From Halobacterium sp. CBA1132 (GTDB lineage Archaea > Halobacteriota > Halobacteria > Halobacteriales > Halobacteriaceae): 64,000 bases of DNA. Each line of letters opens with the position of its first letter. The stretch's first letter is position 1. The DNA lies in assembly GCF_001485535.1 (NCBI RefSeq), contig NZ_BCMZ01000001.1, positions 2,294,001 through 2,358,000 on the forward strand. Direction: 5' to 3'. The notes beneath the pieces are model-generated. The model was not told where the DNA came from. It did not search any database and worked only from the letters and a program-made list of their open reading frames with translations. The translations under genes and the position numbers were made by a program. Shown here in pieces: positions 6,585 through 37,254 of this stretch.

Positions 6585-6947
6585 ATGCGACGGCGGTCGG
6601 TGCTCGCAGCGGCGGCCGCGCTGGCCGCTGGTGGCGGCTGTCTGGACGTGGTCGGTGAGAATCCGGTAGAGGTGCGCGCGCGGCGCGCCAGCGACAGCGC
6701 CGCGGAGAACGCCACCGCCTGCACGCTGTCCGCGTCGTTCGTGGAATCCCACTCAGCCTTAGAGCGCGTGCTGAAATCCGCGACGACAGCTCCCGACGGC
6801 GAGTGGATAGTGACGGACGTCGACCGGAAGACCGGCGACGCGCTCGCGGCGGCGCTGCGTGAGCGCTGCGGGCGGGGCGACGCCGTCTACCGGTACGACG
6901 GCGACGCGTACCGGGTGCGCGTCGAGGAGACCGACGACAACGGGTAG
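6585..6947 (+). CDS. small Tat/lipoprotein-like secreted protein
   Basis: 120 residues starting MRRRSVLAAAAALAAGGGCLD, a twin-arginine-style signal followed by a lipobox-like GGC at residue 19. This suggests a lipid-anchored exported protein with a small domain of about 100 residues. The ATG at 6585 is chosen over the upstream in-frame ATG at 6528 because the signal peptide begins there and a TTTA-rich box lies about 27 bases upstream. Two further cysteines (TACTLSA and RCGRG) could pair. The family was not recognised. Confidence 0.72.
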   Translation: MRRRSVLAAAAALAAGGGCLDVVGENPVEVRARRASDSAAENATACTLSASFVESHSALERVLKSATTAPDGEWIVTDVDRKTGDALAAALRERCGRGDAVYRYDGDAYRVRVEETDDNG

Positions 6948-7006
6948 AACCGGAACAGTTCGGCCAGTTCGGAAGCGATTAGGCGCGGGCGGCCGCAGGA
7001 ACGCAC

Positions 7007-8371
7007 ATGAAAGTGTTCGGGTCCAGCGGCACCCGGGGCGTGGCGAACGAGGAGCTCACTCCCGGGTTCGTGCAGGGGGTGGCGAAGGCCGCGGGGTCGG
7101 TGTGGCGGACCGACCGCGTGGCCGTCGCGCGCGACACGCGAACGACCGGCGGGATGCTCGTGAACGCCGCGACCGCCGGCCTCCAGAGCGTCGGCGTCGA
7201 CGTCGACCGACTGGGCGTGGTGCCGACGCCCGGCCTGCAGGCGTACGCCGAGCGCGAGGGCGTGCCCGCGGTGATGGTGACCGCGAGCCACAACCCCGCG
7301 GAGTACAACGGCGTCAAACTCGTCGGCGCGGACGGCGTGGAACTGCCGGTCGACGACCTCGAACGCATCGAGCGGAAGTTCCTCACCGAGCAGTTCGACG
7401 AGGTAGCGTGGAACGCCGTCGGCGACGACGTGGACGTCGCGTCCGCGCGCCGCCAGTACGTCGAACAGCTGCTGGACGCCGTCGACCGCGAGGCCATCGC
7501 AGCGGCGGACCTCACGGTCGCGCTCGACCCCGGCCACGGCGCGGGCGCGCTCACCAGCCCCGAGTTCTACCGGCGCCTCGGCTGCAAGGTCGTCACCGTG
7601 AACGGCCAGCCGGACGGCCACTTCCCGGGCCGAGACCCCGAGCCGGTCGCGGAGAACCTCGACGACCTCGGCGGCCTCGTGCGGGCGACCGACGCCGACG
7701 TCGGCATCGCCCACGACGGCGACGCCGACCGCGCCATCTTCTTCGACGAACACGGCGACTACATCGAGGGCGACGCGACGCTGGCGGCGCTCGCGGAGGC
7801 CGAACTCGACGACAGCGATACCACTGTCTCTGCGGTGAACGTCAGCCAGCGCCTCGTGGACGTCTGCGAGCGCACGGGCGCGGACCTCGAACTCACGCCC
7901 ATCGGCTCCACTCAGATTATGACGCGCATCCGCCAACTGGAGTCGGAGGGCGAGACGGTGCCGGTCGCCGGCGAGGGCAACGGCGGGGTCATCTTCCCGG
8001 GCTACCGGATGACCCGCGACGGCGCGTACACGGGCGCTCGCTTCCTCGAACTGCTCGCCGACAGCGCGGCCAGCGAGGTCGTCGCGCCGTACAGCGACTA
8101 CCACAACGTCCGCGTCAACGTCGGCTACGAGAACGACGCCGAGCGCGAGGCGCTGCTCGGCGCGGCCGAAGAACAGGCGTTGGACGCCGACGCCGAACGC
8201 ACCACCATCGACGGCTACCGCCTCGACTACGGCGACGCGTGGGTGCTTGCACGCCCGTCGGGTACGGAGCCGGTCGTCCGCATCTACGCGGAAGCCACCA
8301 GCGAGGAGCGCGCGGGCTCGCTCGCCGACGAGTTCGCCGCCGCGCTCCGCGCCGCGAAAGCCGGCGTCTAG
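7007..8371 (+). CDS. glmM: phosphoglucosamine mutase / phosphohexomutase
   Basis: 454-residue alpha-D-phosphohexomutase, likely interconverting glucosamine 6- and 1-phosphate for UDP-GlcNAc and surface glycans. The active-site serine is in TASHNPAEYNG (near residue 93). The Mg-binding loop is HDGDADRA (near residue 240), and the C-terminal phosphate loop is RPSGTEPVVRIY (near residue 422). The start MKVFGSSGTRGV is typical. Phosphoglucomutase or phosphomannomutase activity cannot be excluded from sequence, as archaeal members are hard to separate. The stop overlaps the convergent next gene by 4 bases. Confidence 0.88.
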   Translation: MKVFGSSGTRGVANEELTPGFVQGVAKAAGSVWRTDRVAVARDTRTTGGMLVNAATAGLQSVGVDVDRLGVVPTPGLQAYAEREGVPAVMVTASHNPAEYNGVKLVGADGVELPVDDLERIERKFLTEQFDEVAWNAVGDDVDVASARRQYVEQLLDAVDREAIAAADLTVALDPGHGAGALTSPEFYRRLGCKVVTVNGQPDGHFPGRDPEPVAENLDDLGGLVRATDADVGIAHDGDADRAIFFDEHGDYIEGDATLAALAEAELDDSDTTVSAVNVSQRLVDVCERTGADLELTPIGSTQIMTRIRQLESEGETVPVAGEGNGGVIFPGYRMTRDGAYTGARFLELLADSAASEVVAPYSDYHNVRVNVGYENDAEREALLGAAEEQALDADAERTTIDGYRLDYGDAWVLARPSGTEPVVRIYAEATSEERAGSLADEFAAALRAAKAGV

Positions 8372-9501
8372 AGCCGGTCGAGAGCGTCCCGGAGTTCCCG
8401 TTCGGCCTCGCGGGCGGCCGCGAGGTCGTCGGCGACACCGGACTCGATACGCTGTTTCTCCGCGTCCGTGAGTTCGTGTTCGGCGACTGCTGCGGTACGC
8501 AGGCGCTGGTAGTTGTCGTCGCGAACCCGACGCCGGACGTCGTGCAGCGCCGCGAGCGCGTCGTCGTCGGCGAACCGGTCGACGACCGAGACGAGTTCCT
8601 CCAGCCGGTACTGGAGGTCGTCGGCGGGGCCGGGCGGCCAGTCGACGGTCAGCGGGCCGGCGTCCAGTCGGTCGAGGTACGTGCGGTTACCGCCGACCGC
8701 GCGCTTCAGCGCGCGCGGCGCGTCGACGTAGTGGTCGAGTTTCGACGGCGAGTACTCCGCGTACTCCAGCAGTTCGGAGAGCGGTTCCGCGCCCGCGTCG
8801 CGGTCCGCGACGAACGCCGCGAGGTCGTCGGGCACGGGGTCGAAGCCAACGAGCGGGTACGCCTGCGCGGTCTCGACGAATCCGAGCACGTCCCGGGCCG
8901 GCGCGGAGTCCCGGAACGACCCGAACGCGGCGCGAACGCGCTCGTTGTACGTCTCGATTGGGTCGCGCAGCGTCGCCACGGGCGCGTCGAGGTCAGCGTC
9001 GCCGAGGCGCTGGAGGCGCTCCAGTTGCTCGACCTCCGCCGCGTACTCGTCGGCGCGCGCCTCCACGCGCGTCCGCGTGTCGGCGTACGCCGCCCGAGCG
9101 TCTTCGAGGTCGTCCAGTCGGCCCGCGAGCGAGCGGGCGTCCGCGAGTCTGTCGCGGGCCTCCGCGAAGTCCGCCTCGGAGAGCCGGCGCTTCTTGAATA
9201 GGTCCAGCAGCGACTCGAAGGCGTCGCGCTCGGGGAGGTCCTCGTCGAGCGATTCGACGAACGCCACGAGGTCGTCCTGGAAGTCGATGTACGACTTGAA
9301 GTCACCCGTGCCGGTGGCGTCGGCCTCGTACTGGTCGAAGAGGCGTTCGAGGCCGTCGAGCGCGTCCTGCAGGCTCCGGAGTCGCGCCTTCCCGACGTCC
9401 TCGACCGCGTCGCGGGCGTCGTCGCGGGCGTCGTGCGCGGCTTCGAGGTCGGCGACGAGGCCGGACGGGTCGCTCGTGTGGGCGGCCTGCGCGTCGGACA
9501 T
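8368..9501 (-). CDS. coiled-coil protein, probably DUF7118 family
   Basis: 377-residue, highly charged protein made mostly of predicted long helices rich in Asp, Glu, Arg, Ala and Leu (for example residues 15-60, 100-190 and 330-377). It has no signal peptide, membrane segment or catalytic motif. It resembles the haloarchaeal DUF7118 family. It is monocistronic and convergent with glmM. Coiled-coil architecture suggests a structural or nucleoid/SMC-like accessory role, but that is only inference. Confidence 0.7.
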   Translation of the reverse strand: MSDAQAAHTSDPSGLVADLEAAHDARDDARDAVEDVGKARLRSLQDALDGLERLFDQYEADATGTGDFKSYIDFQDDLVAFVESLDEDLPERDAFESLLDLFKKRRLSEADFAEARDRLADARSLAGRLDDLEDARAAYADTRTRVEARADEYAAEVEQLERLQRLGDADLDAPVATLRDPIETYNERVRAAFGSFRDSAPARDVLGFVETAQAYPLVGFDPVPDDLAAFVADRDAGAEPLSELLEYAEYSPSKLDHYVDAPRALKRAVGGNRTYLDRLDAGPLTVDWPPGPADDLQYRLEELVSVVDRFADDDALAALHDVRRRVRDDNYQRLRTAAVAEHELTDAEKQRIESGVADDLAAAREAERELRDALDRL

Positions 9502-34086: not shown

Positions 34087-34440
34087 TTAGAACGGAGCCT
34101 GCGGGCCTTCGTCTTCCTCGGCGTCCTCGCCGGACTCTTCGCCGGGGAACGACGGGCTCATGCCGCTGTCGTGGTCGCCGCCCATGCCGGTGTCGGCGTT
34201 CACGGCGTCGACTTCGGGAATCTCCTTGGTCATGCGGGACTTGATGGCCTGAATCGTCATCGGGGAGATGCCGCAGCCCGAACACGCGCCGCCGAGCTGG
34301 AGGTCGACGACACCGTTCTCGCGGTCGATGTTCTGGATGGCGGCCGTACCGCCGTGCATCTGAATCTGGGGGAAGTTCCGACGGAGGAAGTTGTTGACGC
34401 GCTCCTCCAGGTCGTCGCCGCTCTGACTCTCGGTGCTCAT
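34087..34440 (-). CDS. NifU-like Fe-S scaffold domain protein
   Basis: 117 residues. Residues 15-80 are the NifU C-terminal domain with the LGGACSGCGISPMT motif, whose CxxC binds a transient Fe-S cluster for delivery. The tail is acidic and disordered. It stands alone, as in other haloarchaea, and would serve Fe-S assembly alongside Suf proteins elsewhere. Confidence 0.9.
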   Translation of the reverse strand: MSTESQSGDDLEERVNNFLRRNFPQIQMHGGTAAIQNIDRENGVVDLQLGGACSGCGISPMTIQAIKSRMTKEIPEVDAVNADTGMGGDHDSGMSPSFPGEESGEDAEEDEGPQAPF

Positions 34441-34505: not shown

Positions 34506-34829
34506 TTACGCGTCGTCGACGTCGAACTGTGAGCGCAGCTCCGCGCGAATCTCTTCGAGGTAGCGGTCGAGGACGTGCTGGGTCTTCTCGTCAGTGGCGA
34601 CGACGCCGTCGAGTTTAGCGAGCGGGTCGTCGGGGAGTTCGACGGTGAACTCGCCGTCCTCGAAGTGGGGTTCGCTCTCCGCGAGAATCGTCTGGTCGAT
34701 GCCGTGGACCAGATCCGAGTCGAAGGACTCGTTCATCGTCTCGAACGCGCTCTTGTACGCGGTCTGGAGCTTCGGGAAGTAGTCGACGTACTTCTGTTCC
34801 TCGAACTCCTCGGCCGTCAGGTCGCTCAT
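34506..34829 (-). CDS. DUF5783 haloarchaeal protein
   Basis: 107 residues, acidic, mainly helical, without membrane segments or catalytic motifs (DLTAEEFEEQKYVDYFPKLQTAYKSAF at the start). It matches the haloarchaeal DUF5783 family. It is tandem with the NifU-like gene 65 bases downstream, perhaps co-transcribed. Function unknown. Confidence 0.8.
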   Translation of the reverse strand: MSDLTAEEFEEQKYVDYFPKLQTAYKSAFETMNESFDSDLVHGIDQTILAESEPHFEDGEFTVELPDDPLAKLDGVVATDEKTQHVLDRYLEEIRAELRSQFDVDDA

Positions 34830-34881: not shown

Positions 34882-34908
34882 GCCGACCAAGTTTCTATAT
34901 CGTGGTAT
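34882..34908 (+). repeat. left arm of 612-bp inverted repeat element
   Basis: GCCGACCAA-GT-TTCTATATCGTGGTAT. Its reverse complement recurs at 35469-35493 with one mismatch and a 2-base gap (24 of 25 aligned bases). Confidence 0.85.
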
Positions 34909-34964
34909 AAGATTTATTGAGGGGTCCGTCGACAGCGGGAGCGGTGAGTGGTTGCAGCGAGTCG

Positions 34965-35045
34965 CCGAATCGAGCGGAGCGGGGCCGACGAGCCGAGGCC
35001 ATCGGCTTCGGCGTCGCGAGCTTCTGGCCGCTCCGCTCGATTCGG
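34965..35045. repeat. hairpin with 18-bp perfect stem
   Basis: CCGAATCGAGCGGAGCGG at 34965-34982 is perfectly complementary to CCGCTCCGCTCGATTCGG at 35028-35045, leaving a 45-base loop. Confidence 0.9.
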
Positions 35046-35468
35046 AGTGGTGGCGACGGCACTCACGGAGAGCTTCCGTTCGGCGACGAGCAGGCGGGCT
35101 TGGACTCGCGCACGCGCGAAAGAGTGTCGACCCGCGTCACGCACACCCGGGGTTCGACGAGCGAGGAACCACCGCGCGCTGCGGGGAGTCGGGTTTCGGG
35201 GCGGCGGTCGGGCCGGGCCGTGCTACTCTCGTCGGCGCCGCCGACGAACAGCCGGCCCGCGAACCCCTCACCCCCACTCATGGGTTCGTCTCGCCTTCGT
35301 GGCGGCGCCGACAACCCCGGGTTCAGCCGCTGGTCAGCTGATAGACTTCCGGGGAGTGAGCGAGATACCATTCAGGACGCCCAGTCGGTTCGCTCGTCGC
35401 AGGGTCGCCGCCGCTTCGCTGCCCCGCTCGCAGTCGCCGCAGACCACTTCGGGGCAGTGATAAACCAC

Positions 35469-35493
35469 ATACTACGATATAGAATTGGTCGGC
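35469..35493 (-). repeat. right arm of 612-bp inverted repeat element
   Basis: ATACTACGATATAGAA followed by TTGGTCGGC, the reverse complement of the arm at 34882-34908. Partial similarity continues inward (for example GAGTGGTTGCAGCGAGT versus AAGTGGTCTGCGGCGACT). Confidence 0.85.
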
Positions 35494-35543: not shown

Positions 35544-36044
35544 ATGGTCATCTACGAGGCGGACGTTCCCGGCGTCGGGAAGCGCTACGAGGTCGAGACT
35601 GGGGGCGGCGAGCGCGCCGTCGTCATCGTCCACCACGACGGGAAGCGGGAGCTGTTCCGGCGCAGCGACGCGGACGCGGACGCCGAGAAGCTCTTCGAGT
35701 TCACGGGCGAGCAGGCCCGGCAGGTAGCCACGTCGCTGGAGGGAACGGACTTCCAGCCGCTGGACCTGGAGGACGTCGACGTGCCGCTCGGCGGCGCCGT
35801 CATCGAGTGGACCGAAGTCCCCGAGGGGTCGCCGGTCGCCGGCGAGACGATGGGAGACGTCCACATCGGCAAGGAGACGGGCGTGACCGTCGTGGCCATC
35901 CAGCGCGGTGACGAGACCATCGGGAGCCCGGGCGCGGACACCGTCCTCGAAGCCGGTGACATCTTCGTCGCCATCGGGTCCCGGTCCGACCAGGACGCCT
36001 TGTCGGCGCTCCTCGCGGGCGAAGCCACCGAGGAGTCCGACTGA
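35544..36044 (+). CDS. khtT: cation/proton antiporter regulatory subunit (KhtT-like)
   Basis: 166 residues from ATG 35544, with a TATA-like CTTTAAGC about 28 bases upstream. Residues 1-75 are an N-terminal domain; residues 90-160 are a TrkA-C/RCK-C domain (GSPVAGETMGDVHIGKETGVTVVAIQRGDETIGSPGADTVLEAGD). RCK-C domains bind small ligands such as c-di-AMP and gate partner transporters. It ends 4 bases before the antiporter gene, so they form a two-gene operon. Confidence 0.9.
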   Translation: MVIYEADVPGVGKRYEVETGGGERAVVIVHHDGKRELFRRSDADADAEKLFEFTGEQARQVATSLEGTDFQPLDLEDVDVPLGGAVIEWTEVPEGSPVAGETMGDVHIGKETGVTVVAIQRGDETIGSPGADTVLEAGDIFVAIGSRSDQDALSALLAGEATEESD

Positions 36045-36048
36045 CGCG

Positions 36049-37254
36049 ATGGCGGAGGCGCTCCTCCTCGAACTCGGCATCGCGCTCGCGGCGCTGGCGG
36101 TCGCCGGCTCGGTCGCGCGGTACTTCGACCAGCCGGTCATCCCCGCGTACATCGCCGTCGGCATCCTCGTCGGGCCGCACGCGCCAACGAGCGTCGCGAC
36201 GGTCTCGCTGCAGTTGGTCTCCGAGAGCGCGGTCGTCGAGACCGCTGCCGAAGTCGGCATCGTCCTGCTGTTGTTCTTCCTCGGACTGGAGTTCGACGTC
36301 GGCACGCTCGTGCGGAACCGCCGGCGGCTGTCCGCGGTCGGCGGCATCGACCTCGCGGTGAACGCGGCGGTCGGCGTCGCGCTCGGCGTGCTGTTCGGGT
36401 TCGGGCCGGTCGGCGTGCTGCTCGTGACCGGCGTCGTCTACATCTCTTCGAGCGCCATCGTCACGAAGGCGTTGACGGACGCGGGGTGGCTCGCGAACCC
36501 GGAGAGCGAGGTGATTCTCGGCACGCTCGTCGTGGAGGACCTCGTCATCGCCGTCTACCTCGCGGTCGTCGCGGCGGTCGTCGGCGGCGGCGGAACCGTC
36601 GGGAGCGCTGTCACGACCGTCGTCCAGTCGTTCGTCTTCCTCGCGGCGCTCGCCGGTGCCGCGCACTTCGGGACGGAGTACGTCGACCGCGTGTTCGACA
36701 CGGAGGCGGACGAACTGTTCGTGCTGCGGGTCGTCGGGACGGCCGTGCTCGTCGGCGGCGCGGCGCTGTCGGTCGGCGCGAGCGAGGCGGTCGCGGCGTT
36801 CTTCGTCGGCACCGCGTTCCACGGCACCGGCCTCGTCCACCGCGTCGAGAGCCTCGTCGTCCCGCTCCGGGACGTGTTCGCGGCGCTGTTCTTCTTCGCG
36901 GTCGGCCTCGGCACCGACCTGCTGGTGGTCGCGGACGTCTGGCTGCTGTTGCTCGCTGCCGTCGTCGCGACGACCGCCGCGAAGCTCGCCAGCGGGTACG
37001 CCAGCGGCCGCGTCTACGGGCTGGACGACCGTAGGTCCGCGCGCGTCGGCCTCGGACTGGTCGCGCGCGGCGAGTTCTCGCTCATCGTCGCGACGCTCGC
37101 GGCGACGAGCGCGGACCCGACGATTCGGACGGTCGTGCCCGCGTTCGCGGTCGGCTACGTCATCGCGATGAGCTTCGTCGGCTCGCTGGCTGTCCAGTAC
37201 GGCGCCGGGCTGTCGGCGGCGTTCGCGCGCCGCGTCGGCCGCGGGTCACTCTAG
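36049..37254 (+). CDS. khtU: CPA2 family cation/proton antiporter (KhtU/KefB-like)
   Basis: 401 residues from the ATG at 36049, with 12-13 predicted membrane segments. The Na/H exchanger domain shows DQPVIPAYIAVGILVGPHAP near residue 24, LLLFFLGLEFDV (ion-binding Asp region) near 70 and YISSSAIVTKAL near 130. It has no cytoplasmic RCK part; the preceding gene supplies it. It probably exports K+ or Na+ in exchange for protons. Confidence 0.92.
   Translation: MAEALLLELGIALAALAVAGSVARYFDQPVIPAYIAVGILVGPHAPTSVATVSLQLVSESAVVETAAEVGIVLLLFFLGLEFDVGTLVRNRRRLSAVGGIDLAVNAAVGVALGVLFGFGPVGVLLVTGVVYISSSAIVTKALTDAGWLANPESEVILGTLVVEDLVIAVYLAVVAAVVGGGGTVGSAVTTVVQSFVFLAALAGAAHFGTEYVDRVFDTEADELFVLRVVGTAVLVGGAALSVGASEAVAAFFVGTAFHGTGLVHRVESLVVPLRDVFAALFFFAVGLGTDLLVVADVWLLLLAAVVATTAAKLASGYASGRVYGLDDRRSARVGLGLVARGEFSLIVATLAATSADPTIRTVVPAFAVGYVIAMSFVGSLAVQYGAGLSAAFARRVGRGSL

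Follow-up and report, generated by a model that had tools for sequence, protein, structure and literature searches.

The window analyzed here, a 64-kb stretch of DNA belonging to the 2.59-Mb chromosome of Halobacterium sp. CBA1132 (the source genome), carries a pair of inverted arms between two divergent genes. To the left lie a gene of the haloarchaeal DUF5783 family (34506 to 34829, − strand), whose start codon is ~60 nt outside the left site, and an adjoining NifU-domain gene (34087 to 34440, − strand), which is enclosed together with DUF5783 in other genera. To the right lie a TrkA_C-domain gene (35544 to 36044, + strand), whose start codon is ~58 nt outside the right site, and a flanking Na+/H+ exchanger gene (35908 to 37254, + strand), whose listed open reading frame start overlaps TrkA_C. 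As delimited by a weight matrix, the two sites have cores of 29 nt each and point inwards, the left one at 34892 to 34920 (+ strand; 46.5 bits) and the right one at 35457 to 35485 (− strand; 48.1 bits), with an interval of 536 nt (34921 to 35456) between them. A sequence-only reading of the window had described the arms as near-perfect inverted repeats with a single mismatch. An inverted repeat indeed exists, but the one-mismatch figure requires a 2-base gap (arms of 27 and 25 bases); direct comparison within the window gave an ungapped inverted match of 25 nt between 34893–34917 and 35460–35484, with 84% complementarity. Both arms are A/T-rich, as that reading had stated, and the interior is 71% G+C.

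Across the entire 64-kb window, only two places scored above 12 bits with the motif weight matrix, namely the two arms, both of which are part of its training set, while ten column-permuted matrices yielded zero sites of ≥12 bits. The central six bases of the arms are TCGTGG and TCGTAG. The outermost bases that the arms share, GCCGACCAA, look incidental, since the arms of other pairs were no more alike than expected outside the motif (columns −3 to 0). No target-site duplication was obvious at the window arms on inspection by eye.

Searching the source genome with the interior at an E-value of ≤0.001 returned a single match, the interior itself. In agreement with the earlier statement that no transposase is encoded, no conserved protein gene was recognized between the arms, and Rfam and tRNA searches gave no match there. 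The interior shows a modest excess of folding over its shuffled versions (z = −2.5 on the [+] strand and −3.6 on the [−] strand). It contains a perfect 18-bp hairpin (34965 to 35045) with arms at 34965–34982 and 35028–35045 and a 45-nt loop, which plausibly accounts for the folding excess by itself and is only a putative part of the paired-site system. The excess would favor a structured non-coding RNA gene with the arms serving as its closing stem or as promoters; we nonetheless consider such a gene highly unlikely, given this simpler source of the folding, the lack of an Rfam match, the unconserved interior, and the finding that similarity between the arms of a pair does not exceed expectation (see below). 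A replication origin was rejected because no listed chromosomal Cdc6/Orc1-type match lies within 40 kb of a pair in the source genome and the interior is G+C-rich.

A paired motif across the Halobacteriales

Each window arm is a copy of a conserved asymmetric motif of ~26 bp, ATTCTATATCGCRRTATRTGATTTAT, that is spread across the Halobacteriales; the two copies are convergent. As a genome-wide search for the arms, suggested by the sequence-only reading, bore out, the same sequence recurs elsewhere in the genome and in relatives, where copies were found by relaxed pattern and similarity searches. The motif shows a partial dyad around columns 9–14 with a variable 6-bp center. Sites of two divergent families (f10 and f12) carry TATAGCG instead of TATCGCG, a variant also seen at most of the recombinase-side sites inspected.

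We used two models of the motif: R1, a sequence-only model from an alignment of 26 copies, and a broader model built from 124 sites. In the source genome, R1 detected six strong sites that form three facing pairs (269049/270251, 1304746/1305246, and the window pair) as well as a seventh, weak site (E = 0.066) belonging to a fourth pair. This fourth pair runs from ~1779672 (+) to 1781931 (−); within it lie a DUF7838 zinc-ribbon gene and a second DUF5805-recombinase gene pair. With a single site at 938338, which adjoins the main recombinase gene, the source genome contains at least four pairs plus one single site; the broader model gave 10 matches there at an E-value of ≤0.2, with seven among those listed. 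Across the order, R1 matched 81 out of 146 Halobacteriales genomes at an E-value of ≤0.001, representing 38 of 56 genera, and the broader model found a match (E ≤ 0.2) in all 33 genomes picked for having few contigs, with best values per genome ranging from 9.7e−9 to 0.0019. Sites from the broader model were listed down to an E-value of ~0.0013, and the counts derived from them are lower bounds. An exact-pattern scan of a species-genome collection returned 64 stretches, 57 of which are haloarchaeal; the other seven, from non-haloarchaea, were set aside as chance matches. With respect to a viral origin, two exact motif patterns had no match in the IMG/VR contigs.

Next to one another, the sites are strongly oriented. 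Among 150 listed sites in 32 genomes, 25 of the 26 neighbors lying <2 kb apart were convergent, with one tandem and no divergent case, and neighbors <6 kb apart comprised 29 convergent, 3 divergent, and 3 tandem cases. For many of these 150 sites no partner is listed, in part because a weak partner scores too low to be included. Collecting by matrix gave 91 distinct convergent pairs with interiors of 244 to 4,920 nt. Over the 12 variable columns, the within-pair identity was 0.418 compared with 0.397 ± 0.013 after shuffling (113 out of 2,000 shuffles were as high); column by column, it remained near expectation, and no run of columns showed a clear excess. Each arm of a pair varies independently of the other, which fits independent protein-binding sites, while transposon ends, RNA stems, or mutually recombining arms should be more alike. 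The central 6 bp were identical in 3 of the 91 pairs (4.8 ± 2.1 after shuffling), so that avoidance of equal central bases was not significant. This is a counterpoint to the idea that differing centers are kept to block recombination between the arms, as identical centers would then be rarer than by chance. Taken together, the independent arms and the diverged interiors speak against a MITE, an RNA stem, or an invertible switch, and for sites that, judging from their sequences, would be conserved binding sites.

Inheritance and gene content of the facing pairs

We found a pair directly beside DUF5783 in 10 out of 13 Halobacterium genomes, including G000, G004, G008, G010, and G011. The distance from DUF5783 to the closest site is 1.3 kb in G006 and 2.1 kb in G001, and in G002 the 7.5-kb stretch fetched around this gene contains no site, the nearest pair being ~6.4 kb away. 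The pairs of G001 and G010 enclose a DUF7350 lipoprotein gene. A blastn comparison of the interiors (E ≤ 1e−3), covering the Halobacterium pairs except that of G007, showed that most are beyond alignment and that the window interior has no match to any other; the interiors that do align are those of G001 and G010 (the DUF7350 gene), of G004 and G011 in part (208 nt, 71%), and of G011 and G008 (39 nt). The sites persist in Halobacterium relatives while the interior turns over. The outer partner genes vary between species and include TrkA_C and dipeptidase genes, among others. Gene-order breakpoints at the pairs, noted with no control for ordinary gene-order change, were at first taken as a sign of reshuffling by recombination, and this idea was dropped since some of them stem from NhaP-TrkA having been gained or lost locally next to the site. 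In five Halobacterium genomes, a third pair is found 0.4–0.9 kb from a ParA/AAA_31 gene, which is followed by a small acidic gene in at least four of them.

MITEs and insertion sequence (IS) ends are inverted terminal sequences around a segment without a transposase, and a MITE or the relic of a larger element was the first explanation offered by the sequence-only reading. It matches the inverted ends, the size of ~0.6 kb, and the lack of a recognized transposase, and yet it now appears extremely unlikely: the interior is unique, the ends diverge independently and are hardly more alike than shuffled ones, and the pair is inherited vertically beside DUF5783, with syntenic ends around mostly unalignable interiors. 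Moreover, no transposase with such ends was met in an unsystematic search. The alternative raised in the same reading, a regulator that binds both sites, fits much better, as it is the sites rather than the interior that are conserved.

Turning to gene content, 27 of the 91 pairs enclose rio2, 18 enclose DUF5783 with or without NifU, DUF7130, ApbA, and sulfatase genes, and 6 enclose the DUF7838 zinc-ribbon gene. The remaining 40 hold none of these; DUF5805 and recombinase genes are present in two of them. In many genera other than Halobacterium, DUF5783 lies inside the pair. When loci were fetched by gene instead of by motif, a site of ≥18 bits was present in 27 of 30 rio2, 17 of 30 DUF5783, and 25 of 30 DUF7838 loci, and a pair bracketed the gene match in 14, 4, and 17 of them, respectively; these sets are the best-scoring 30 from 140, 136, and 130 genomes, not random draws, and some of the genomes also supplied sites to the matrix. 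Column-permuted matrices gave 0 out of 450 at the same three kinds of loci. A matrix read backwards on the 60 rio2 and DUF5783 loci produced three sites of ≥12 bits, one of them of 18 bits, and all three overlap real sites.

Starting from the sites, 74 of 144 listed ones lie within 1.5 kb of rio2, DUF5783, DUF7838, or the recombinase gene (0.48 expected at random positions), and for 63 the nearest of these four is more than 3 kb away. This count omits G011, which was unsampled by the family searches; in G048, no site was listed. Counted by genome, listed sites occur near rio2 in 21 of 31, near DUF5783 in 14 of 27, near DUF7838 in 9 of 29, and near the recombinase gene in 13 of 31. At the rio2 locus, no site was found in three f2 genomes or in one of the two f15 genomes.

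Outside Halobacterium, 18 of 19 rio2 alignments start 50–83 nt inside the start-side site (147–231 nt for the eight Halobacterium rio2 pairs). The site at the other end mostly falls no more than ~105 nt from where the gene ends. These distances, and the starts of DUF5783 and TrkA_C ~60 nt outside the window sites, are in line with the main rival reading, in which another widespread haloarchaeal protein, either a global regulator or a chromosome-architecture protein, binds the sites and has the recombinase operon as just one of its targets. Each facing pair would then set up a loop or boundary about the size of a gene, by which the transcription units within or next to it are insulated or regulated, and the bracketing of unrelated genes (rio2, NifU, DUF7838, RdfA, and DUF7350) would be expected. 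Against this stand the facing orientation, which is kept even where nothing recognizable is enclosed, the spacing of 0.24 to 4.9 kb, and the fact that no candidate protein was found. We regard this reading as a serious possibility, though one well short of an even chance.

Invertons are recombinase-controlled invertible segments with inverted sites and a tyrosine recombinase. A switch in which the recombinase flips the segment between the arms would make sense of the inverted sites, of the tyrosine recombinase described below, and of a window pair placed between two divergent genes. It is nevertheless distinctly improbable because the orientation of rio2 relative to its flanks was constant in all six Halobacterium genomes in which both flanks are conserved, and because the arms are mostly unmatched in the center and show no clear excess of within-pair identity.

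Several individual loci show other arrangements. At L299 (3406–4747; G129), one facing pair surrounds both DUF7838 and rio2, which are in opposite orientations. At L292 (3315–6597; G036), the order is site, rio2, site, DUF5805, recombinase, site, possibly an older arrangement. In Haloterrigena salina (L113, 4249–7500), a facing pair with a weak second site surrounds the gene of RdfA (rod-determining factor A) and a coiled-coil AAA_23 (SMC-like) gene, and in a Halorubrum genome (L144, 3523–7998), an intein-bearing gene for the DNA polymerase D large subunit adjoins the DUF5783-NifU bracket.

DUF5805 and the tyrosine recombinase

Two brackets (L077 and L160) enclose a DUF5805 gene together with a tyrosine-recombinase gene. 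The recombinase matched 136 of 146 genomes at an E-value of ≤1e−20, including 122 of 122 good ones, with one match in most of the 136. The search for an autonomous relative that the sequence-only reading had proposed was worthwhile, since some pairs have a tyrosine-recombinase gene within or next to them, but it is a core gene of the order and not an obvious recent mobile element. Its best NCBIfam model is NF040815 (XerA_Arch) at 118 bits, with a cut-off of 220, and its sequence matches in the PDB are 4a8e (XerC-like), 1a0p (XerD), and 5hxy (XerA); the protein resembles XerA/XerD in sequence, yet lies below the XerA cut-off. R157, K217, H295, R298, and Y330, which we take to be the catalytic residues of a tyrosine recombinase, are invariant in 30 sequences, and, set against the signature R-K-H-R-(H/W)-Y, the second H/W place appears to be D321. 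As for DUF5805, its structural model (mean pLDDT of 65.5) has a C-terminal half that is, at low confidence, winged-helix-like; the top structural matches were mostly winged-helix domains, none of them at an E-value of ≤0.001. We read the N-terminal sequence as RHH-like, and overall DUF5805 looks like a two-domain DNA-binding protein.

A facing site was located downstream of the recombinase gene in 22 of the 30 best-scoring loci of 136 genomes (not a random draw, and including genomes that also supplied sites to the matrix), and there was none at the other eight. In 18 of these 22, the position of the site relative to the stop codon ranged from 3 nt ahead of it to 62 nt beyond it, with the others at 244, 275, 364, and 1,289 nt; permuted matrices gave 0 out of 150. 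Ten of the 30 loci are from Halobacterium, comprising six with a site at 15 nt, two in which it overlaps the stop codon (−3), and two with none. Among further recombinase loci, fetched by position, a facing site was near the stop codon in four genomes (G016, G036, G043, and G060) and at both chromosomal loci of the source genome, only weak sites in A+T-rich DNA were seen in G042, and no site was near the stop codon in three others (G027, G033, and G034). In families f10 and f12, whose recombinase is ~50% identical, rio2 and the DUF5805-recombinase operon lie ~1–14 kb apart where both are within the fetched stretch, with sites around.

A further contig of the source genome (L331, G000:C4; 21.6 kb), probably a plasmid, carries DUF5805-like, tyrosine-recombinase-like (41% to the core one), and ParA-like genes in a row (6650–9063), and no strong site was present in the 20 kb read. 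This homologous cluster, the recombinase gene often found beside one end, and the outer-flank partner genes that differ between species would all be compatible with domesticated or fossil mobile units, i.e., an old DUF5805-recombinase element that spread its ends and left gene-less units as derivatives. We judge this improbable in view of the near-universal, mostly single recombinase match, the inheritance at the same place across the genus, and the lack of a similar interior in the genome; in addition, the ends of an inactive relic should decay.

Interpretation of the paired sites

The feature in the window belongs to a set of convergent site pairs found across the order, and these sites probably serve as address labels for a conserved system of DNA binding or recombination. 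Our tentative preference, held at somewhat less than an even chance, is that they are docking or recombination sites of a conserved DUF5805-tyrosine-recombinase (Xer-like) module. Three observations make this module the leading candidate: it is nearly universal among the Halobacteriales, it looks DNA-binding, and its own gene often ends at a site. The recombinase gene is only one of four gene groups beside sites, and it may therefore simply be another bracketed gene. Under the preferred reading, a single conserved protein or module, here the DUF5805-recombinase module, would bind the sites in pairs. Joining the two sites of a pair would create a synapse or a small loop marking a position on the chromosome, with the 536-bp interval of the window being a mere spacer. 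Strand exchange, if any, would take place between identical sites on different chromosome copies and not between the arms of one pair, which is the likelier option as the centers of the arms mostly differ and rio2 was unflipped in six of six genomes. The role of such exchange could be dimer or multimer resolution in a polyploid cell.

Xer/dif sites have a format of 28 bp, with two 11-bp arms around a 6-bp center, and, to our knowledge, known Xer systems use one dif site. Alignment of our motif to the dif site of Pyrococcus abyssi gave 12 matches, i.e., chance level (shuffled mean of 12.2; p = 0.69). What the two systems have in common is a lineage-conserved chromosomal tyrosine recombinase, going by the available text on P. 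abyssi XerA (PMC2958812, PMC3646895), and a short site whose variable 6-bp center is flanked by a partial dyad. The haloarchaeal sites differ in being several, in forming largely convergent pairs, and in having a DUF5805 partner. Furthermore, Thermococcales dif sites are described in the accessible part of PMC2958812, which makes no mention of "halo", as unique and located away from xerA, whereas a haloarchaeal site adjoins the recombinase gene.

The SegAB/ParAB centromere sites, as presented in the portion of PMC12284271 at hand, are similar in that several conserved sites occur per chromosome, and in five Halobacterium genomes one of our pairs is near a ParA-type gene. The SegB motif given there is 13 bp with the core AGA(g/c)TCT and, compared by this printed core, differs from the haloarchaeal motif. 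ParA and centromere function as a general explanation was dropped because this ParA-type gene is present in none of the 57 other haloarchaeal site loci.

In the parts of the archaeal recombinase review (PMC8371274) and the Haloferax volcanii review (PMC7776575) that were available, no haloarchaeal dif site is named, and the available text of PMC9764264 and PMC3646895 holds nothing closer to a paired-site system. Searches with motif strings and related topics, whose reach excluded most subscription papers, found no earlier description of the motif or the paired sites. A fuller picture, which we offer as doubtful but worth stating, is a bracket system of the Halobacteriales in which facing 26-bp pairs, read by the DUF5805-recombinase, would hold or exchange spots between chromosome copies, acting as multi-site dif or centromere loci tightly coupled to rio2, DUF5783-NifU, DUF7838, and the recombinase gene.

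According to the accessible text of PMC7776575, H. volcanii has 12 XerC/D-like genes, which suggests possible dif sites, and their role in termination is still to be determined. A precise site model, together with a near-universal recombinase whose gene lies beside one site, makes this XerC/D-dif question directly testable in H. volcanii. Even if the binder is another protein, an order-wide orientation rule for paired sites around core genes would represent a layer of archaeal chromosome organization of which we found no report.
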